Of a stretch of DNA of 64,000 nt, positions 33,901 through 45,287 are shown piece by piece (position 1 is the stretch's first letter; every line of letters starts with the position of its first letter). The notes under the pieces were generated by a model. It was not told where the DNA came from, did not search any database, and worked only from the letters and a program-made list of their open reading frames with translations. Origin of the DNA: Cryobacterium frigoriphilum (GTDB taxonomy: Bacteria > Actinomycetota > Actinomycetes > Actinomycetales > Microbacteriaceae); assembly GCF_004403305.1 (NCBI RefSeq), contig NZ_SOHE01000069.1, positions 1-64,000 of the forward strand, written 5' to 3'. The position numbers were made by a program, and so were the translations under genes.

Positions 33901-33977
33901 CGGGCTGTAGCGCAGCTTGGTAGCGCACCTGACTGGGGGTCAGGGGGTCGCAGGTTCAAATCCTGTCAGCCCGACCA
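33901..33977 (+). tRNA. tRNA-Pro (anticodon GGG)
   Basis: 77 bases including an encoded CCA. The acceptor stem is CGGGCTG with CAGCCCG, the anticodon stem CCTGA with TCAGG holds the loop CTGGGGG giving anticodon GGG, and the T arm contains GGTTCAAATCC. An integrase gene follows, so its 3' half is the likely attachment site of the downstream element. Confidence 0.97.
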
Positions 33978-34424: not shown

Positions 34425-35612
34425 ATGTCGCGGCCGCGTTTGACGATTGGCACCTTCGGCGACATCACCACCCGAGCCGTGGCCTCTGGCGGGTTCAAGG
34501 CTCGCACCCTGTACCGGGACTGGGACGGCCAAGCCCGCCAGGTTCAAAGCAGTGGCAGCACCGCTCGGGCCGCTGAGCGAAATCTCAAGGAGAAACTTGC
34601 CGAGCGAGCGCTGCGCCAGCCCAGTAGCTCGTTTCTGAGCCCGGACAGTGCCTTCGGCGATCTGGTGACGTACTGGCTTGAGGACATCGACCTGGAAAAT
34701 CGGATCTCGAAGACCACTCGCAACCTCTATGAGCGCAACATGCGCACCCTGGTGCTGCCGGTGTTTCGCCACCTAACGTTGCGGGAAATCGGTGTCGTGC
34801 GCTGCGATCACTTCATCAAGCAGATGGCGCGGATCTCCTACAGCCGGGCGAAGCAATCCCGGGTCGTCTTGCGGCTGGCGCTCGAACTCGCTGTGCGGCA
34901 TGAGATCCTGCCTAGCAACCCGATGGACCACGTCTCGCGTCTCTATCGCGAGCCCCATATTCCGGATGCACTCACGGCCATCGAGGTCAACTCGATCCGA
35001 CGGGCGATCACGAGCTGGGAGAACGGCGTTGACCACGTGTCCGGACCGCTGCCGGACGGCCAGCTGGGAGCGATTATCGAGGTCATGCTCGGCACATCCG
35101 CTCGGATCGGAGAAGTATTGGCCATCCGCCGCCGTGACGTGGACGTCACCAGTACCGTGCCCCTGATCCGCCTCGCCATCACCATCGTGAGCCGCAAAGG
35201 CGAGCTGACGTTCCGGCAGGATCACCCCAAAACCGCCAAGTCGCGTCGCGTCGTGGCGCTGCCGTCGTTCGCCTCGGACGCCGTTCGTCGACGTCTTGCC
35301 ATCGCCGGCATGCTGGACATGGACGCGCTGCTCTTCCAATCGCGTGACGGAACTCCGCTGACCACCGCCAATGTTCGGCGTCAGCTGCGGCATGTTCTGG
35401 AAAGTGCCGGCATCACGGGGGTGACGCCGCATCTGTTCCGCCGCACGGTGGCCACCGCTGTCAACGACAACGCCACCGTTGAGCTGGCGGCGGAGTTACT
35501 CGGCCACACCGACACGAAGATCACCGTGATGCACTACATCCGGCGGAGCGAACAGGTGAATCCGGCGACCGCCGCGCTGCTTGACCAGGCGTTCGCTCCA
35601 GAGGACGACTAA
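34425..35612 (+). CDS. Phage-type tyrosine integrase
   Basis: 395 residues. It has an N-terminal arm-binding segment, a core-binding domain (about residues 75-170) and a catalytic domain with Arg in SARIGEVLAIRRRD, HLFRR, LLGHTDTK and the nucleophilic Tyr in VMHYIRRS. It would integrate the element into the adjacent tRNA-Pro. Confidence 0.92.
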   Translation: MSRPRLTIGTFGDITTRAVASGGFKARTLYRDWDGQARQVQSSGSTARAAERNLKEKLAERALRQPSSSFLSPDSAFGDLVTYWLEDIDLENRISKTTRNLYERNMRTLVLPVFRHLTLREIGVVRCDHFIKQMARISYSRAKQSRVVLRLALELAVRHEILPSNPMDHVSRLYREPHIPDALTAIEVNSIRRAITSWENGVDHVSGPLPDGQLGAIIEVMLGTSARIGEVLAIRRRDVDVTSTVPLIRLAITIVSRKGELTFRQDHPKTAKSRRVVALPSFASDAVRRRLAIAGMLDMDALLFQSRDGTPLTTANVRRQLRHVLESAGITGVTPHLFRRTVATAVNDNATVELAAELLGHTDTKITVMHYIRRSEQVNPATAALLDQAFAPEDD

Positions 35613-36705: not shown

Positions 36706-38016
36706 TCATCCGAGCCGCTTGGAATACGCCTGCGCAACATCAAAATCCAAACCAGAATATATGGATGGTCTAAGCCTCACGTAGGCCTTGAACATTTCAT
36801 TTCGAAATCTAACTAACCCCCGCTTCTGGATGGTGGGAACGAAGAGAACGTCACCAAACTCAGGCTTGCAAAGATGCCCGCGATAGGTTGATCCAGAATT
36901 CAATCCAAGATCCTGGCTCAGGATCTTGTAAATTTCGCCAGTCGGAATATCTGCGTCAGTCCAGTGGGCGAAAGCGCGGAGCGTCTTCTCACGAGCGGAG
37001 GAATCGCGAACCGCAGCCTGATACATGTCAGAGAATTGCTGTGCGAATCGATTATCAACGATCCCTCGGATCGCCGCCTCAACATGAACGTGGTCAATCT
37101 TCAAACGTCCGTCTTCGTCAGCGTCGATGAGGCACTGCTGGCCAAGCACGTGAACAAACCAAGGGAACCCGGCGGAGACTTCAGTCAGCCTCACCGTCGC
37201 TCGCCGAGTAAACGAAATCGCCACTCCCTCGCCATTGAGATGGCCCTCGGCCTTAGCGACGATCTGGCCAAGTTCAGCGGGGGTCATCAGAGGAACTTTG
37301 ACGGGCTGCAGCCGGCGTTCGAGAGATTGGTGATCGCTCAAGAGGTCGGACACGTTACTTGCGATGCCCACCAACATGAATTTGAGTGACTCACTAGAAG
37401 CAGCTTTCAGGAAACTGGCCAACCCGACTGTGCTCCTCATCCTGTCCAGTTCGTCGATCACGAAAAGGACAGGCTGACCGTACGAGGAAGTCAATAGTTC
37501 GCAGAGCTGTACGAGTTTCTCCTCAAGGTTCAAGTCTTGGTAACTCAGCCTCTGGCGTTCAACCTCGTACTTTTTTGTACTCTCGACCTCCACGAACTTA
37601 AGAGTCAGCTTCTTCCGAGTCACGCGATCAATCAGCTGGTTCGCGCCCATGTTTGAGAGTACGTTCTCTACGGATTCAGCGGAGTTGACCAGAGCCTGCA
37701 GTAGACCGTCAAGCGTCTGCGTCGAGTCCGTACAAGTGACATAGAAAGTGAGGTAATGACGGTCTTCAGGAAGGGCCAGGCGCTCAGCATTGAGTTGATG
37801 AAGCAGCTCTACACCGCCCATAGCAATTAGCCTGAGCTGAAGGGCGAGACTCGATTTGCCCAGCCCTCGATCGCCGTAGATGAGCGGTGTAGCGCCGTTC
37901 GAGTTCAGGGAATCGGCAAGTTCACGCACCTGCTTGTTCCGGCCTGCGAATCGCTCGGGATCGTCTAACTCCGTTGCTGGAAGAAACGCATTAAGCATGA
38001 CTTTTCTGTCGATCAT
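36706..38016 (-). CDS. Stand-alone P-loop ATPase (AAA/STAND-like)
   Basis: 436 residues from ATG with GGGGG upstream. Walker A GDRGLGKSS at about 48-56 and Walker B VLFVIDEL at about 183-190 are followed by a sensor/arginine segment (HQSLERRLQ) and a helical C-terminal region with FPWFVHVLGQQ. No membrane segment and no fused nuclease, protease or other effector. GC is low: 31 of 60 bases on the line from 37441, against 38 of 60 at 7021. Its role in the element could be regulation, maintenance or defence; nothing in the sequence decides. Confidence 0.78.
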   Translation of the reverse strand: MIDRKVMLNAFLPATELDDPERFAGRNKQVRELADSLNSNGATPLIYGDRGLGKSSLALQLRLIAMGGVELLHQLNAERLALPEDRHYLTFYVTCTDSTQTLDGLLQALVNSAESVENVLSNMGANQLIDRVTRKKLTLKFVEVESTKKYEVERQRLSYQDLNLEEKLVQLCELLTSSYGQPVLFVIDELDRMRSTVGLASFLKAASSESLKFMLVGIASNVSDLLSDHQSLERRLQPVKVPLMTPAELGQIVAKAEGHLNGEGVAISFTRRATVRLTEVSAGFPWFVHVLGQQCLIDADEDGRLKIDHVHVEAAIRGIVDNRFAQQFSDMYQAAVRDSSAREKTLRAFAHWTDADIPTGEIYKILSQDLGLNSGSTYRGHLCKPEFGDVLFVPTIQKRGLVRFRNEMFKAYVRLRPSIYSGLDFDVAQAYSKRLG

Positions 38017-38343
38017 TGACGCTTACCCCCGTTGAATTACGCTCCCAAAAACATTACCCGGCAGGAATTCGCATACGGTGCTTCTAGTTGCCGTTGAACA
38101 ACCCAGAACAGGGGGAGGCCGTTGATACGGCTAGCAAAGGTTTGGAGTGGGGCACTTCCATCCGAAAACAGGACACCCTCCGGGTGTCGAGGCGGTCCTA
38201 TAGGGCGATGGATACCAATTTGTCACCAATTTCGACCGAGCCTCGCCTCCCGGCTCGGGGGCTCGCGAAAGCTATTCGTGTAGTCCTACTTCTTAAACAG
38301 ATCGAGGGCGCGCACCTTTGTCACGAAGGTGGAGGTGGCCGCC
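38017..38343. other. Spacer between divergent ATPase and relaxase genes, candidate oriT
   Basis: No gene. It holds a perfect hairpin GACACCC-TCC-GGGTGTC (38172-38188) and a second inverted repeat CGAGCC-N9-GGCTCG near 38239-38259. Placement just before a MobF relaxase makes it the best place for an origin of transfer, but no nick site can be identified by eye. Confidence 0.4.
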
Positions 38344-41300
38344 GTGACGGTGTCGATGCGGGTGATGAGTGCCGGGGACGGTTACAAGTACCTGCTGCGC
38401 ACCGTCGCTGTCAGTGACGGTGACCGCTTGATGTCGACTCCGCTCACTCGGTACTACACCGCGGAGGGCACGCCGCCGGGCCGGTGGCTGGGCGGCGGCC
38501 TTCCCGGTCTCGGCGGCGGCCTCATCGTCGAGGGTGACGTTGTCACCGAGGCCCAGCTGCAGTTGCTCGTCGGCCTGGGCCGCGACCCGGTCACCGGCGA
38601 ACCGCTCGGGCGCGCGTACCCGGTGTATCTCACCGCCGCAGGACGAGCTGCGGCTGAAGCCAACAGTCTCGAGAACGGGCCGACGGTGCGGGCCGCGGGC
38701 GCCGCGGCATCCGCTGACGAGGAATCGGGGGCGAAGCGGCGGAGGGCTGTGGCGGGGTATGACTTTACGTTTTCGATTCCGAAGTCGGCGAGTGTGCTGT
38801 GGGGGGTGGCCGACGCGTCCACGCAGGCGCGCATCGCGGCGGCGCACCATGCGGCGGTGGCCGAGGTGATCGCGTATATGGAGCGGGAGGTCGCGGCGAC
38901 GCGCACCGGCACCACCGGGCAGGGCGGCGCCGTGGCGCAGGTGGCCGTGACCGGCCTGATCGCGACGGCGTTTGACCATTTCGATAGCCGGGCGGGGGAT
39001 CCGCACCTGCACACGCACGTGGTGATCAGTAACAAGGTGCAGACCGTGCTCGACGGTAGGTGGTGTTCGCTCGACGGCCGGCCGATGCACGAGGCCGTGG
39101 TGGCGCTGAGTGAGCTGCATGAGACCCTGTTCGCTGACGCGCTCACCCGCTCGCTGGGCGTGCGGTGGGAACCGCGGGAGCGGGGGCGCGATCGGCACCC
39201 GGCGTGGGCGGTGCGGGGTGTGCCGGAGGCGCTCGTGGCGGAGTTTTCGACGCGGTCCCAGCACATCGACGTGGAGACCGACCGGCTGATCGAGGCGTAT
39301 GTGGCCAGTCAAGGGCGGCGTCCGAGTGCGGTGACGATCACGAAGCTGCGGGCGCAGGCGACGCTAGCCACGCGGCCGGCGAAGCAGGTGCACTCGCTGG
39401 CGCAGCTGACGGCGGCGTGGCGGGAACGGGCCGGGCGAGTGCTCGGGCGGGACGCTTTGGTGGTGGTTGACGACCCGGTGGTGCTGCGCGCTGAGGACCT
39501 GCCGCTTTCAGCTCCCGAGGCGCTCGGGCTTCGAGTGATGACGGCCGTGAGCGAGAAGCGCGCTACCTGGCGGCACTGGAACCTGATCGCCGAGGCCGCG
39601 CGCCAGAGCATGCCGTACCGGTTCGCGTCGGCGAGCGATCGCGAGGCCATCGTCGGGCTGATAGCGGATGCCGCCGAGCGCGCCTCCCTGCGCCTCACCC
39701 CACCGGAGCTCGCCGTTAGCCCAGTGGCGTTTCAGCGCAAGGACGGCACGTCGGTGTTTCGGCCGAAGCACTCCGTGGTGTTCACCTCGACGGAGTTGCT
39801 GGAGGCCGAGGCGCGGCTGCTGGCGCGGGCCGGGTTGCTGACTGCGCCGCGGGTTGCGGTGCCGTCTTCGGTTGCGCGCCGGCGGTTGCCCGGCGGGGGA
39901 GTGCTCGCCGCTGACCAGCTCGCGGCGCTGACTGCGGTCGCCGGCTCGGGTCGGGTCGTCGATGTGCTGGTCGGGCCGGCCGGCGCGGGTAAGACGACGG
40001 CGATGAACGCGCTGCGGCGGGCGTGGGAGTCTGTGCATGGTGCGGGCTCGGTCGTCGGGCTGGCGCCGTCGGCGGCCGCGGCGACGGTGCTGGCGACGGA
40101 TCTCGGCATCACGACCGAGAACCTGTCGAAGTGGTGGCATGCCCACCTTTCCGACGGCACGACGTTTCAAGCCGGCCAGCTCGTGATCATCGACGAGGCT
40201 TCCCTGGCGGGCACGTTGCCGCTGGACCGCGTCACGGCGCTGGCCGCCACTGCTGGCGCGAAGGTGCTGCTGGTCGGCGACTACGCGCAGCTGCAGTCGG
40301 TGGATGCGGGCGGCGCGTTCTCGCTGCTGGTGCACGACCGGGCGGATGCGCCCGAACTCTTCGACGTACACCGTTTCGTGCACGAGTGGGAGAAGGCGGC
40401 ATCCCTCGGCCTGCGGCAGGGCGACCCCGATTCGATCGACCTCTACGCCGCCCATGATCGGCTGTTTGATGGCGATACCGAGTCGATGACGGATGCTGCC
40501 TACGCGGCCTGGCGCGCGGACATCCGGCTGGGTAAATCGACGGTGCTGATCAGTGATTCCAATGAGGCGGTGGCGGCGCTAAACGTGCGGGCGCGCACGG
40601 AACTGATTCTGGAGGGGCGGGTCGACGCCCGGCGCGAGGCCGACCTGCACGACGGAACCCGTGCCGCAGCTGGCGACACGGTGATCACGCGTCGCAACGA
40701 TCGGCGGCTGTGTGCGTCGCGCACGTGGGTGCGCAACGGCGACCGGTGGGTCGTGGTCGGGGTGCGGCGTGATGGCGGGGTCGAGGTGCGGCGTCCGGGT
40801 CGGCGGTGGGGGAGCACGGTGGTGCTGCCGGCGGCGTATGTCGCGGAGCACGTCGAGCTGGGCTACGCGGTCACGTCGCACCGGGCCCAAGGGCTCACGA
40901 CTGACACCGCGCATGTTGTCGTGGCGCCGAGCATGCCGCGGGAGAACTTCTACGTCGCGATGACGCGCGGGCGCGAGGCGAACAGTGCCTATGTCGCCGT
41001 GGATCGGCCGGATGTGGCGCACGTGGGGCCGCGGGCCGGGGATGATCCGGAGGTGTCGGGGCGCAGTGTTCTGTTCGGCATTTTGCAGCACGTCGGGGCC
41101 GAGCTGTCGGCGCACGAGACTCTGGCGGCCGAGCAGGATGCCTGGGGTTCGGTGGCGCAGCTCGCTGCGGAGTACGAGACCCTCGCGGCCGCCGCGCAGC
41201 ACGACCGGTGGGTCGCGGTCGTGCGGGGGAGCGGGCTGTCGCCGGGCCAGGCGGATGCGGTAATTGAGTCGGATGCGTTCGGGCCGTTGACCGCGGAGCT

Positions 41301-41871
41301 GCGGCGGGCCGAGGCCTACCATTACGACGTTTCTCGGTTGCTGTCCCGGGTGGTGGCAGCCCGAGGGTTCGAGGACGCCCAGGACATCGCGGCTGTGCTG
41401 CACGCCCGAGTGGCAGGCGCGGTGGCGCGGGATGCCGCGGCCGGCCGCTCGCGCCGTACGCCGCGCTTGGTCGCCGGCCTCATCCCTCGTGCGCTCGGCC
41501 CGATGGACACAACCATGCACCAGGCGTTGGTGGAGCGCAGCGACCTGATCGAATCGCGGGCGGCAGCTGTGCTCGACGCAGCGCTGCAGGCAGGAGAGCC
41601 CTGGACCCGAGCGCTCGGCGCAGCACCCCGCGGTTTGGCCGCCGCCGCATGGCGCCAAAGCGGATGCACCGTCGCCGCCTACCGGGACCGCTACGGCATC
41701 GTAGACGCGCGTCCCCTCGGTGCTGTCCCGGAATCAACCGCCCAGAAGCTCGACGCCGCCCGCGCCTGCGCCGCCCTTGAGGCGGCTCAACGGTATACCG
41801 ACGCTCATCTCACCGCTGCGATCAGGCCGCCTGCCATTTCGGGGCTTACGTCGGCCGGGATCCGGATCTAA
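38344..41871 (+). CDS. MobF-family relaxase with helicase domain (TrwC/TraI-like)
   Basis: 1175 residues from GTG 38344, preceded by GGAGG eight bases away; GTGs at 38329 and 38335 are alternatives. The relaxase domain has the tyrosine pair Y37-Y38 and the metal-binding histidine triad DPHLHTHVV near residue 221. A superfamily I helicase follows with Walker A VGPAGAGKTT near residue 545, VIIDEASLAG and GDYAQLQSVDAGG. The enzyme nicks oriT, attaches to the strand and unwinds it for conjugative transfer. Full length, apparently intact. Confidence 0.93.
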   Translation: MTVSMRVMSAGDGYKYLLRTVAVSDGDRLMSTPLTRYYTAEGTPPGRWLGGGLPGLGGGLIVEGDVVTEAQLQLLVGLGRDPVTGEPLGRAYPVYLTAAGRAAAEANSLENGPTVRAAGAAASADEESGAKRRRAVAGYDFTFSIPKSASVLWGVADASTQARIAAAHHAAVAEVIAYMEREVAATRTGTTGQGGAVAQVAVTGLIATAFDHFDSRAGDPHLHTHVVISNKVQTVLDGRWCSLDGRPMHEAVVALSELHETLFADALTRSLGVRWEPRERGRDRHPAWAVRGVPEALVAEFSTRSQHIDVETDRLIEAYVASQGRRPSAVTITKLRAQATLATRPAKQVHSLAQLTAAWRERAGRVLGRDALVVVDDPVVLRAEDLPLSAPEALGLRVMTAVSEKRATWRHWNLIAEAARQSMPYRFASASDREAIVGLIADAAERASLRLTPPELAVSPVAFQRKDGTSVFRPKHSVVFTSTELLEAEARLLARAGLLTAPRVAVPSSVARRRLPGGGVLAADQLAALTAVAGSGRVVDVLVGPAGAGKTTAMNALRRAWESVHGAGSVVGLAPSAAAATVLATDLGITTENLSKWWHAHLSDGTTFQAGQLVIIDEASLAGTLPLDRVTALAATAGAKVLLVGDYAQLQSVDAGGAFSLLVHDRADAPELFDVHRFVHEWEKAASLGLRQGDPDSIDLYAAHDRLFDGDTESMTDAAYAAWRADIRLGKSTVLISDSNEAVAALNVRARTELILEGRVDARREADLHDGTRAAAGDTVITRRNDRRLCASRTWVRNGDRWVVVGVRRDGGVEVRRPGRRWGSTVVLPAAYVAEHVELGYAVTSHRAQGLTTDTAHVVVAPSMPRENFYVAMTRGREANSAYVAVDRPDVAHVGPRAGDDPEVSGRSVLFGILQHVGAELSAHETLAAEQDAWGSVAQLAAEYETLAAAAQHDRWVAVVRGSGLSPGQADAVIESDAFGPLTAELRRAEAYHYDVSRLLSRVVAARGFEDAQDIAAVLHARVAGAVARDAAAGRSRRTPRLVAGLIPRALGPMDTTMHQALVERSDLIESRAAAVLDAALQAGEPWTRALGAAPRGLAAAAWRQSGCTVAAYRDRYGIVDARPLGAVPESTAQKLDAARACAALEAAQRYTDAHLTAAIRPPAISGLTSAGIRI

Positions 41872-41936: not shown

Positions 41937-42209
41937 TTAGGTCAAGGTCGACAATGGCACGTCGCGAAACGGGTTGGCCACGCCGCCCGTTTCCAGATTT
42001 GCGATTGTGAAGCCTTGCAGCCGCAAATCCTCTACAACCTGACGGGATGCGATCTTGTTGATGCTCGTCCAGCCGTCCCAGCCGTTTGTCTGATCGTCCT
42101 TGACTACTCGGTCGCTTGGGCGGAAGGCAGCCTTGAGGCGGACGACTTTGTTGGCGCCTTTGGGAAACTGCGCCTGAGCGCTGGCGAGGACGGCTTCTGA
42201 ACTGCTCAT
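41937..42209 (-). CDS. Hypothetical 90-residue protein
   Basis: 90 residues, start supported by a leaderless-type -10 box at 42216-42221. Sequence includes VVRLKAAFRPSDRVVKDDQ and SRQVVEDLRLQGFTIANLE; it looks like a small mixed alpha/beta protein with no recognised domain. It is divergent from the gene at 42283, the two -10 boxes being about 50 bases apart, so they may be coregulated. Confidence 0.6.
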   Translation of the reverse strand: MSSSEAVLASAQAQFPKGANKVVRLKAAFRPSDRVVKDDQTNGWDGWTSINKIASRQVVEDLRLQGFTIANLETGGVANPFRDVPLSTLT

Positions 42210-42215
42210 CCAAAT

Positions 42216-42221
42216 AGCTTA
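42216..42221 (-). promoter_or_regulatory. -10 box for leaderless 41937-42209 gene
   Basis: TAAGCT on the minus strand, six bases before the ATG at 42209. Confidence 0.45.
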
Positions 42222-42270
42222 CATGCAACACTCAGAAAACACACAGACATTGCGCCCCTGTGGACCCAGC

Positions 42271-42276
42271 TAGGCT
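42271..42276 (+). promoter_or_regulatory. -10 box for leaderless 42283 gene
   Basis: TAGGCT six bases before ATG 42283, with TTGCGC 15 bases upstream as a poor -35. Confidence 0.45.
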
Positions 42277-42282
42277 GCGGGC

Positions 42283-42966
42283 ATGGAACGAATCACAGGA
42301 TTGTTCGGCGGCCCAAGCAGACTTCTGGGCGGACACAGGGGTGAGGACTTCGTCGTTCGTTCCCAGCGGCGTGTCGAGCCGTATGAGATCGAGGCGCAAT
42401 TTCATAAAAGTCAGATGGTGGTGCCGATTACGACACCGATTTACGAAGGTGACATCGTGGAACGAGGCGACCCCCGCGGCGGAGTGATTGAGTACACGGT
42501 GGCGAACGTCGAGCTAAGCAGAGATCCCTTCGGCCACGGGAACGATCACGCTATCGCCAGTTTGAAAGAGAACGGACATGCGGAACGCAAGTACGGAAGC
42601 GTGTACAACATCCATGTCGCTGGCGGCAACAATCAGATCGCAGCCGGGGCTAATGCGACCCTCAATCAGACGGTGAATGCCGTCAACGATGAACTCGCTG
42701 CCGTGCTCAGGGCGATCCTCGCAGATGTACCACGGGACGCGCTGTCATCGAGCGAGTTGGAGGAACTCGAAGAGGCGATCGGGGAAGCAATCGAAGTATC
42801 CGAGTCGGGCTCCGCGAAGCCGACTGCTGTGAAACGCGCCCTTTACTCCGCGAAAGGCGTCGTAGAAGACCTCGGGTCAGCGATAAAGAGTGGCACCGGC
42901 GATGCCGTGAGAAGCTGGGCGACTACAGCTGTGACGGTTCTTCTCACAAAACTTTCTGGAATGTAG
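42283..42966 (+). CDS. Hypothetical protein with Asn/Gly-rich strand motif, AbiTii-neighbour
   Basis: 227 residues. The N-terminal half is beta-rich (residues about 30-100). A motif YNIHVAGGNNQIAAGANATL at about 108-127 is followed by a helical tail with ELEELEEAIGEAIE and a last amphipathic helix (VRSWATTAVTVLLTKL). The motif recalls VIISGKGNRVNVA in the AbiTii protein encoded opposite, and similar motifs stand before helical tails in several defence-associated families. No catalytic residues recognised. It converges on the AbiTii gene, 110 bases away. Confidence 0.7.
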   Translation: MERITGLFGGPSRLLGGHRGEDFVVRSQRRVEPYEIEAQFHKSQMVVPITTPIYEGDIVERGDPRGGVIEYTVANVELSRDPFGHGNDHAIASLKENGHAERKYGSVYNIHVAGGNNQIAAGANATLNQTVNAVNDELAAVLRAILADVPRDALSSSELEELEEAIGEAIEVSESGSAKPTAVKRALYSAKGVVEDLGSAIKSGTGDAVRSWATTAVTVLLTKLSGM

Positions 42967-43076
42967 TCGCTGCATTCGCCTCGCTCCGCCTGCGACTTGG
43001 CGGGCGGGAATCCCCTCCCTGCGGGTGCAGCGTTTCAGGCGCGGGCCGTGGAGGGCCAGGTTCCGGTGAGTGCAAT

Positions 43077-43880
43077 TCAGGTGCTGAGTCCTTGCGTCTG
43101 CCACCACGCGATTGCAGCACCAACCACCGTGGACAGCCCGACGACGACGGCGCCGATTCGTCGGCCTAAGGTCCAAAACCTATTTTCCGTCACCTCACCG
43201 CCGTTCGCCGAAGCCGGTCCATCCCCGCGGGCCTGGGCAACGTTCACCCGGTTTCCTTTCCCGCTGATAATCACGTTGACCGCGTTCGAAGCTTGGTCGG
43301 CCGTCGGTCCGTCTGCGCGAGATGGGGTGACGGCGCGAAGCTCTGCGAGTAGTTCGGCGAGTCGTGTTCGGACCTGGTCGATGATGCCATCCACGGCCGA
43401 CTTGCTCACTATCCAGTAGAGAGCGCTGATGTGTTGATACGGGTCCCCAACCTGTTTTTCCATAAGACGCGCGATCATCCGCTCAGAGGGGAGGGAGATC
43501 TGAATCCCACGACTTTCGTCCGCCTCACGAACGAGGGATTGGATCTCGCCGATGCCCTGAGGAAACGCAACCTGATCTGAAATATGTTCCTGCACTTCTG
43601 CGGGGAGGTTAAATCCACCAATGGTTTGGTGTCTGACCAGTGTGTTGCCTGAAATGCCATCTAGCTGAAGTGTCCCGGGTATTCTGCGGTAGCTGGGGAG
43701 GTCTGTGATACCTGCATCTGCATAACCTCGAAGTTCATGAGATGCCCAGTCGCGCAATTCACTTGATCCCGAGCGGCCCCCAAGAATTATCAACTTTCGC
43801 AAGACATCTGCAAGAGACGCATTGTCAAGCAGATCCCTCTCAATTTCTGAGAGGAGAGTATGCGGAGTTTTCAATGGCAT
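43077..43880 (-). CDS. AbiTii-domain abortive-infection-type protein
   Basis: 267 residues from ATG 43880; ATG 43913 is an alternative. The N-terminal block LLSEIERDLLDNASLADVLR then ELRDWASHELRGYADA...LPSYRRI fits the AbiTii family. After a middle helical region comes NVIISGKGNRVNVA (about 200-215) and one C-terminal membrane helix (GRRIGAVVVGLSTVVGAAIAWW). The membrane anchor and family suggest a phage-defence protein that harms the cell on infection, but no experimental mechanism is implied here. Its codon use and GC are lower than the host block. Confidence 0.7.
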   Translation of the reverse strand: MPLKTPHTLLSEIERDLLDNASLADVLRKLIILGGRSGSSELRDWASHELRGYADAGITDLPSYRRIPGTLQLDGISGNTLVRHQTIGGFNLPAEVQEHISDQVAFPQGIGEIQSLVREADESRGIQISLPSERMIARLMEKQVGDPYQHISALYWIVSKSAVDGIIDQVRTRLAELLAELRAVTPSRADGPTADQASNAVNVIISGKGNRVNVAQARGDGPASANGGEVTENRFWTLGRRIGAVVVGLSTVVGAAIAWWQTQGLST

Positions 43881-44002
43881 AAGGCGATCATTGCATTGAA
43901 CGGTCGAGCTCATCAGTTTGGCGACATTTATCTTCGCGCTTCGCATGACCAAGTAGACCACGCGCGAGGGCCATTGGGGCCCAATGCATCAAATAGCGTC
44001 TA

Positions 44003-44412
44003 TTAGATCAGCTTCGGTTGTCCGTCGGGCGTATGGCCCAGCCGGGCGGTGAGCATCAGCACGAGCGCGGTGCCTGAGAGCGCCCCGTCCAGGAGGCCGG
44101 CGGGAAGGAGGAAGATCATCAGCGTGAGCGTCACGAGACAATTGGCCAGGGAAAGCCCCAGGCCCCACAGCCGATGCCGCAGCAGGCCGATCGCGCCGAG
44201 GATGCGCAGAAGCGCGAAAACGCCACTCATCGCCATCATGAGGTAAAGATTGTCCTGAAGAAAACATCGGCATGTTTAGCGATGGATGCTTGCGGGATCT
44301 GGAGAGCGAGAAGAACCAAGACACCAATGAAAACCAGCCCCTCCATAAGTACGCCCTGGATCATGAGCAACCAAGCCGCCCGTCGATACTGCAGCCGCTG
44401 AGATGTGTCCAT
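44003..44412 (-). pseudogene. Small four-helix membrane protein, broken by a frameshift
   Basis: Reading from ATG 44412 gives MDTSQRLQYRRAAWLLMIQG... through two membrane helices to KHADVFFRTIFTS and a stop. Adding one T to the TTTT run (plus-strand AAAA at 44261-44264) continues instead as KHADVFLQDNLYLMMAMSGV and through two further helices to GHTPDGQPKLI at 44003. Both halves look like one protein of about 136 residues. It may be a true frameshift mutation, a homopolymer sequencing error, or a slippage site. No family recognised. Confidence 0.65.
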
Positions 44413-44418
44413 TCCGCA

Positions 44419-44424
44419 ACCCTA
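44419..44424 (-). promoter_or_regulatory. -10 box for leaderless membrane-protein gene
   Basis: TAGGGT on the minus strand, six bases before ATG 44412, supporting that start codon. Confidence 0.4.
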
Positions 44425-44555
44425 TCGGCCGCTCAGTACCCGACCTTCAAAACTTATTTACCACGTCACCAGGAAAGATAGTGGACCGATGGCACAAGCG
44501 AGCGGCTGTGCCCGGACTGGTAGACGAGGGTTATGGGCACTGGCATCATCGGAGA

Positions 44556-45287
44556 ATGACCCAAACTCGCTGGCAGCGTCTCTCCGAATGGCCACTTACG
44601 GCGACCGCAGTGATATTCCTTGTCGCTTACACGTGGGAAGTTATCGGAAACCTTAGCGGCTTGAGCGAACTGGTGGCGGAGATCGTTATCGGTGTCACGT
44701 GGGCTATCTTCGCGTTGGACTATCTAATCAATCTTGTGCTCGCACCACGCCGGTGGCAATGGTTCTACACGCATATCTTGGACCTCTTGATTGTTGTTCT
44801 TCCGCTGCTGCGCCCTCTGCGACTACTGCGCCTAGTCACCCTCCTTGCAGTGCTCCAGCGCACCGCTGGTGCCGCATTCCGTGGTCGGGTAGTGACATAT
44901 GTGGCGGGCGCAGCGGCACTCCTGGTGTTCGTCGCTGCGGTCGCTGTCCTCGACAGCGAGCGAAGCAACGCCGACTCGACCATCACCAACTTCGGCGACG
45001 CCCTCTGGTGGGCGTTCGTAACTGTGACAACTGTCGGATACGGTGATTTTGCACCTGTAACGGCGCAGGGAAGATTGATTGCCGGCGGTCTAATGCTCGG
45101 CGGTGTAGCCCTGCTCGGAGTCGTGACAGCGACCCTCGCCTCGTGGATCGTCGAGCGCGTGGCACGTCAAGAAGAGGATGAGCAAGCGGCAACCCGGGGC
45201 GAGATCCGGGCGCTGGGACAACAGATCGGTCGACTCCAAGACACGTTGGATTCGCAGCCGAGCGCTTCCGCGGACAGAAGGCCATGA
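44556..45287 (+). CDS. Potassium-channel-like protein (voltage-gated ion channel fold)
   Basis: 243 residues from ATG 44556. Four S1-S4-like helices, including the basic segment LLRPLRLLRLVTLL, precede a pore with the selectivity filter TVTTVGYGDFAPVT and a last helix, then a charged helical C-terminus (EEDEQAATRGEIRALGQQIGRLQ) that may form a coiled coil. It should conduct K+ across the cytoplasmic membrane. As cargo in an element it is unusual; it could be housekeeping DNA captured, or an effector. Confidence 0.88.
   Translation: MTQTRWQRLSEWPLTATAVIFLVAYTWEVIGNLSGLSELVAEIVIGVTWAIFALDYLINLVLAPRRWQWFYTHILDLLIVVLPLLRPLRLLRLVTLLAVLQRTAGAAFRGRVVTYVAGAAALLVFVAAVAVLDSERSNADSTITNFGDALWWAFVTVTTVGYGDFAPVTAQGRLIAGGLMLGGVALLGVVTATLASWIVERVARQEEDEQAATRGEIRALGQQIGRLQDTLDSQPSASADRRP

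Follow-up and report, generated by a model that had tools for sequence, protein, structure and literature searches.

The gene at positions 42283-42966 (plus strand) of the window, the 64,000-nucleotide stretch of Cryobacterium frigoriphilum DNA analysed here, encodes a 227-residue protein that, on sequence comparison, is a member of an undescribed modular family of actinobacterial proteins. It is tentatively read as a one-gene abortive-infection protein, in which an N-terminal domain (hereafter X) may sense a structural part of a phage, a strand rich in glycine and asparagine may assemble copies of the protein, and a C-terminal module of four helices may kill the cell; the AbiTii gene that faces it (43077-43880, minus strand) would act separately. 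By their sequences and distribution the two genes look like separate phage-defence genes and not like an inseparable pair.

The X domain family and its exchangeable C-termini

Three parts of the 42283 protein were recognised from its open reading frame, profile matches and AlphaFold model: the X domain, a small beta barrel with the signature EGDxxExxDPRGG (residues ~12-103, 42316-42591, plus strand, delimited by the model and fold searches); a Gly/Asn strand motif in the YNIHVAGGNNQIAAG region (residues ~105-123, 42595-42651, plus strand, modelled with low confidence); and the four-helix C-terminal module (residues 131-226, 42673-42960, plus strand, delimited by profiles, the model and PADLOC). 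The profile search of this protein, which the first-pass annotation had proposed as a check, gave no Pfam or NCBIfam match at E ≤ 1 and a PADLOC match to PDC-M14B (1e-5) in the C-terminal part (residues 107-195).

A pattern search of the genome collection with the window protein returned 503 stretches and no relative, and a degenerate EGDxxExxDPRGG pattern was adopted because of this, which returned 45 stretches. X was confirmed by profile in 29 of these, all with actinobacterial record titles, many of the 29 sequences having themselves trained the X profile (the window protein is among the training sequences of both the X and the module profiles). The other 16 stretches were dropped as non-X, having either no signature open reading frame or the signature in an unrelated frame; one of the dropped stretches (L040) matched at 6.9e-5 over the 26-residue signature alone.

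The 29 X domains are followed by a HEPN-type tail (17), by a strand and helical module (11) or by nothing (1, the domain alone). HEPN tails match Hypoth_Ymh of Pfam (PF09509, 1.6e-33, in L029) and Aga_HEPN of PADLOC (2.7e-9, in L045), the others being assigned by sequence likeness, and the RxxxxH motif is intact in 17 of the 18 proteins checked (the 17 stretches plus L075), the eighteenth being cut off by the end of its stretch. The window protein has no Pfam match to a HEPN domain, and none of the complete X proteins read carries both a HEPN domain and a helical module. Because the sister proteins join X to HEPN instead of the module, X may be regarded as a constant input and the tail as an exchangeable output. 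X was not found described in the open-licence literature, judged from its listings, on connector mimic-toxin fusions, domesticated phage structural proteins with HEPN, AbiTii or PDC-M14.

The window protein itself matched nothing in a sequence search of plasmids and phages. Its relative L053, used as query, matched nine plasmid records, one, a Clavibacter copy, along 98% of the query and the other eight in the C-terminal part only. X is also present on three viral contigs, on one of them as a shortened copy. Viral contig L075 (272-1592, 3969-5677) carries a TIR_2 gene, an X-HEPN gene and, by eye, capsid-like genes, the last lying about 3.3-4.7 kb from the X-HEPN gene.

A neighbour of defence type was confirmed in nine of the 26 X loci read, a figure that is not an unbiased count, the nine having been picked by eye before testing, after which all nine matched a defence-type family. 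They are a SMODS/AGS_C protein with SLATT_4 (L100), PycTM (L099), SIR2_2 (L053), a CAP12/Pycsar-type TIR protein (L037), TIR_2 (L075 and L071), HsdM (L067), a type III Res protein (L047) and SMODS (L033).

The AlphaFold model of the window protein has a mean pLDDT of 83.8 and a pTM of 0.49, leaving open the placing of the parts; block means reach about 90-97 over residues 21-100, within X. The predicted fold of X is connector-like. In VIA-align, the predicted model ranked the connector (stopper) chain 8zdj_M of mycobacteriophage Douge first (Z 10.7, rmsd 2.1 Å, 77 residues, most of X), above XkdH of PBSX and entries from phiXacJX1, Chi, lambda, SPP1, T4 and others. Twenty of the best 50 rows cover X, and all 20 are proteins of phages or phage-like particles, mostly neck or connector entries; T4 contributes four rows and Douge two, and a monocin tip and a lactococcal baseplate are also on the list. 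The second-ranked BFVD match of X was the head-to-tail connector of a Rhodococcus phage (E 2.3e-3, probability 1.00, rmsd 7.1), and Foldseek alone gave no X match at E ≤ 0.001.

Sequence searches matched no annotated connector family, whether in PHROGs (31 X members), in Pfam (25 X members) or by profile against the PDB, and a tblastn search of phages with X gave the connector no support. The PHROGs matched were families of no known function, the best being phrog_16834, found by six of the 31 members (2.1e-5), which in the window protein spans both domains. Since sequence searches give no support, the likeness of X to connectors could be an analogy of a shared small barrel. Nor does the window gene lie in a phage morphogenesis cluster; it follows a relaxase gene and faces the AbiTii gene.

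A real, if doubtful, possibility is that X is a barrel of a general kind, binding nucleic acid or a small molecule and sensing infection by that route, in the manner of GreA, YopX or PUA-like domains. Barrel turns that look like the EGDxV...P.GG portion occur in a hypothetical nucleolar protein (E 0.1) and a GreA/GreB entry (E 0.33), both from the PDB profile search, and in YopX (0.018 in Pfam, where YodE scored 0.026); some X relatives adjoin cyclic-nucleotide systems, and the failure of X to match any annotated connector family would also be explained. Yet these weak sequence matches (E 0.02-0.3) are at about chance level, and the X-covering VIA rows among the best 50, all from phages or phage-like particles and led by the Douge connector, speak against a generic barrel.

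The four-helix module and the strand motif

By profile comparison, the C-terminal module is a homologue of the tails carried by AbiTii fusion proteins. When the modules of X proteins, the window's included, were made into a profile, it picked up the tails of L011 (1.3e-7) and L012 (1.8e-6), two AbiTii fusions absent from its training set, and more weakly matched AbiTii fusion L115 (3.4e-4). In profile-profile comparisons the module scored 95.1% against the L011 and L012 tails (the best of 40 column shuffles reaching 1.6%), 92.9% against ten fusion tails (54.9% when L011 and L012 were left out) and 61.3% against a further set of four fusion tails; seven negative profile comparisons gave at most 1.3%, and column shuffling, repeated 40 times for each of two targets, at most 2.6%. 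The L011 tail in turn matches AbiTi (3e-7) and PDC-M14B (2e-8) of PADLOC, and the L053 module matches PDC-M14B at 9e-10. Searched at E ≤ 1, the AbiTi profile PDLC02333 hits neither the window protein nor any other protein of the window genome. The likeness of the module to AbiTi is thus transitive: the L011 tail matches AbiTi, and the window protein itself does not. DUF5955 stayed below its cut-off on the modules, and fold searches with the helical module found general four-helix bundles only (Z up to about 10.5, versus a level of about 13 for helical bundles with this tool). Fusions of the module to other N-termini exist as well, among them a DUF1508 domain (L079, 3812-4438, on a Nocardia plasmid) and a stretch that looks by eye like winged-helix repeats (L080).

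A profile of the strand motif, made from 21 module proteins and run over the 5755 other open reading frames of the collected loci, gave seven matches with E ≤ 1, their E-values ranging from 8e-8 to 5e-13. Each lies at the C-terminal end of a protein whose gene immediately precedes that of a stand-alone module, and all seven are in one genus, probably Streptomyces. The training sequences of the profile included the downstream genes of those seven loci, and its reversed-sequence control gave a best E of 0.2. These two-gene loci (L126, L127, L128, L129, L130, L136 and L137, with longer reads L138-L140) encode a beta-helix-like protein with the motif at its C-terminus, followed by a protein of motif and four helices. 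In the three loci read further, the upstream protein has 568-607 residues and by eye the look of a right-handed beta-helix, and the two genes abut or overlap. Further short module proteins that came out of the same search of genomes (L131, L134 and L135) have no such upstream motif match.

Adjacent genes with the same module and different N-terminal domains occur in L037 and L053. L037 (2068-5878) has three genes in a row, encoding X with the module, another N-terminal domain with the module, and a similar N-terminus with a CAP12/Pycsar-type TIR domain. In L053 (1138-2668) the module genes are divergent; their N-termini differ, their strand motifs are alike, and a SIR2_2 gene lies close by.

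Such arrangements would also suit an assembly or docking device, consisting of the strand and the helical module, that is not itself a toxin, the killing enzyme being encoded elsewhere, as by the TIR gene that comes after two module genes in L037. The breadth of fusion speaks for this somewhat unlikely reading: the module is joined to X, AbiTii, DUF1508, the winged-helix-like repeats and a 500-residue N-terminal domain, and stands alone under the beta-helix-like protein. It accords less well with the finding that the complete X proteins read carry either HEPN or the module and never both, as would befit equivalent outputs, and with the toxicity of C. catus AbiTi on its own (PMC3985639).

On the favoured reading of the 42283 protein as a one-gene abortive-infection protein, X would bind a structural component of the phage late in infection, perhaps by being taken up into the neck ring, and binding would bring copies of the protein together. 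The copies, zipped up by the Gly/Asn strand, would form a larger assembly; the AbiTi-related four-helix module would then harm the cell, so that the phage is stopped. In the sister proteins the same X domain is joined to a domain of the HEPN RNase type. According to PMC3985639, C. catus AbiTi inhibits the growth of E. coli and L. lactis AbiTi does not, and C. catus AbiTii fails to counter the growth inhibition by C. catus AbiTi. The lack of toxicity of L. lactis AbiTi in E. coli, with C. catus as a single case of toxicity, counts against reading the module as a toxin.

A bolder form of this reading, which appears unlikely, takes X to be a bait, copied from the phage head-tail connector or mimicking it: once built into assembling necks, it would switch on the fused HEPN RNase, or the AbiTi-like killer with its amyloid-like strand. 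The stand-alone module under beta-helix-like proteins would then represent NLR-free amyloid-like signalling, and AbiT systems would be given a mechanism.

The AbiTii gene, its pairing and the mobile element

The minus-strand open reading frame opens at 43961, and the start used is at 43880. As the first-pass annotation had proposed, its product is an AbiTii protein (PF18864 in Pfam, E 8.4e-34, 117.9 bits versus a cut-off of 27.6; PADLOC AbiTii profile, 3e-38), the domain occupying residues 9-201 (43278-43856). The subfamily to which it belongs has a short strand motif with an invariant glycine at its core; most of the members also have a hydrophobic helix at the C-terminus. In the window protein the motif is VNVIISGKGNRVN (residues 201-213, 43242-43280, placed by alignment), its Gly207 being invariant in 14 aligned sequences, the window's included, and the membrane helix that had been read at its end is likewise predicted, from hydropathy (residues 242-260, 43101-43157, mean hydropathy 1.92), the model placing a helix at 234-264 with low pLDDT. 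Two L104 sequences among the 14 stop short of the hydrophobic helix. Fold searches with AbiTii gave no informative match (best Foldseek E 1.3, best VIA Z 4.4), which is not proof of a new fold.

Glu49 of the AbiTii protein is invariant in 14 of 14 and in nine of nine aligned sequences; the accessible part of PMC3710099 names a highly conserved glutamate in AbiTii without giving its position. Tandem AbiTii genes are present on Streptomyces plasmids (L101, 4144-5753; L103, 4114-5750; L104, 4986-6468), each copy with the same kind of strand motif; the copies of L101 and L103, unlike those of L104, have a hydrophobic C-terminal stretch after it.

The first-pass annotation took the two window genes as a candidate defence pair with related strand motifs. 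The genes are convergent and form no operon. AbiTii was found in one of the 27 searched genomes that carry X, a genome whose X protein is of the HEPN type, and in none of the 11 searched genomes with the X and module architecture of the window; it is absent from the two other genomes of the same genus that have a homologue of the 42283 protein. Conversely, a separate module gene of the window's type is present in none of 21 AbiTii loci (L083-L098 and L101-L105, read with flanks of several kb, 10 being of the window's subfamily). AbiTii occurs in six of 57 genomes of the genus and in 19 of 297 sampled genomes of the order, the window's genome counted in both, and at this background near 6 percent the X-genome sample is too small to show avoidance, so that the counts are evidence only of no conserved pairing with X. 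The proposed pair is therefore not upheld by co-occurrence.

The two proteins were said to lack overall similarity, and they do: their full-length local alignment scores 37, a score reached by 377 of 1000 shuffles, and does not align the two strand motifs to each other. Direct homology of the two proteins was rejected on this chance-level alignment and on a profile comparison of X with the AbiTii domain (1.3%). A Gly/Asn strand before a helical tail can indeed be read in both translations; relatedness of the two strands is at chance level. The alignment score of the two tails was reached by 1390 of 5000 shuffles, the best ungapped 12-mer between them scored 27, reached by 32 of 500 shuffles and a weak result at most, and the two quoted motifs score 22 against each other, the window pair ranking 83rd of 220 cross-family combinations. 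The motif profile from the 21 modules misses the window AbiTii tail at E ≤ 1 among the 5755 open reading frames, and the module scores 0.5% in a profile comparison with the tails of AbiTii proteins that have a membrane helix. A motif common to the window pair was rejected on these grounds. The suggestion that motif sharing of this kind can mark a shared assembly device is supported at the family level, in the seven beta-helix loci, and not for the window pair.

It is accordingly improbable that the two genes are a divergent two-gene AbiT system, in which an AbiTi-like toxic module and a membrane-bound AbiTii would be joined by their strand motifs. The known AbiT consists of abiTi and abiTii (PMC3985639), AbiTii and AbiTi-like modules are fused in L011 and L012, whose AbiTi-matching tails are related to the module of the 42283 protein, and adjacent genes that share a motif do occur in other loci. 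The pairing results tell against it, from the convergent orientation and the chance-level motif match to the lack of AbiTii in the other searched genomes with X proteins of the same layout and of a separate module gene in the AbiTii loci read, as does the lack of an AbiTi profile match in the window genome.

The AbiTii gene is best read as separate cargo of a mobile element, a candidate membrane-tethered defence gene. The earlier placing of both genes in the low-GC cargo of an integrated element was well founded: GC is 0.576 at 42001-44000 versus about 0.65-0.70 before 30 kb, and the left edge region of the element holds a tRNA-Pro gene (33901-33977) adjoined by a tyrosine integrase gene (34425-35612, plus strand, PF00589 2e-18). 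The 3' end of the tRNA-Pro gene (33946-33977, plus strand), which is the left attachment-site copy, is repeated directly with one mismatch at contig positions 69633-69664, the right copy, and because of the position of this copy the element extends beyond the end of the window.

A TrwC/MobF relaxase gene (38329-41871, plus strand, TrwC 9e-89) is the nearest recognised gene upstream of the 42283 gene. Genes for mobF relaxases lie within a few kb of X-module or AbiTii genes on actinobacterial plasmids as well (L082, 3998-4705; L102; L105). The same element carries an ion-channel gene (44403-45284, plus strand, PF07885 3e-17) that adjoins AbiTii, and a gene for an AAA/nSTAND-like NTPase near the integrase (36706-38016, minus strand), barely above the nSTAND1 cut-off and a candidate defence gene. 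That the 42283 protein serves the element, for example in exclusion or transfer control, as its place as the next recognised gene downstream of the relaxase and the position of an X-family gene one gene from mobF on a Clavibacter plasmid might suggest, is highly improbable in view of the CBASS-, Pycsar-, TIR-, SIR2- or restriction-type neighbours in nine of the 26 X loci read.

Comparison with known systems

The mode of action of Abi proteins of the AbiTii type is called largely enigmatic in PMC3710099. An AbiTi-like part that is an exchangeable module, found at the position of the HEPN RNase, offers a concrete hypothesis for how such proteins may act. Likewise, a barrel shaped like a phage neck piece and joined to a helical tail of the abortive-infection kind suggests a sensing of phage assembly that can be tested; if X is a connector mimic, one could test directly whether phage neck assembly triggers abortive infection in actinobacteria.

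The window genes recall the AbiT system of Lactococcus (abiTi/abiTii) in the AbiTii domain and in the module of the 42283 protein, which is related to AbiTi through AbiTii fusions. They differ in converging where abiTi and abiTii form one operon, in the lack of an AbiTi profile match in the 42283 protein, in the additional X domain, in the membrane tail of AbiTii and in not being conserved as a pair. The AbiTii-HEPN and Ymh HEPN proteins (PMC3710099) resemble the X family in having an N-terminal domain with exchangeable C-terminal outputs, the Ymh HEPN among them, but the N-terminal domain here is X, and the window protein has no HEPN. PDC-M14B of PADLOC matches the C-terminal modules of the window protein and of L053, the match in the window protein being confined to that part.

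In bacterial amyloid signalling, NLR and BELL genes share a motif (PMC7889193, PMC8086366 and PMC12261475). The BASS systems of this kind (NLR with BELL, PMC7889193) are similar in having a short Gly/Asn strand motif beside a helical bundle and, in seven loci of one other genus, probably Streptomyces, in a motif common to adjacent genes. They differ in three respects: here the motif precedes the bundle; the beta-helix/module loci have the reverse order to NLR/BELL and encode upstream a beta-helix-like protein in place of an NLR; and the window pair does not share a motif.

Phage structural proteins are the triggers or targets of Tha (tail-activated HEPN, PMC11087260) and Tai (tail assembly, PMC11364771). 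The X family resembles Tha in that the trigger may be a phage structural protein and in that the X-HEPN sisters carry a HEPN domain; it differs in that sensing by X is suggested by a connector-like predicted fold.
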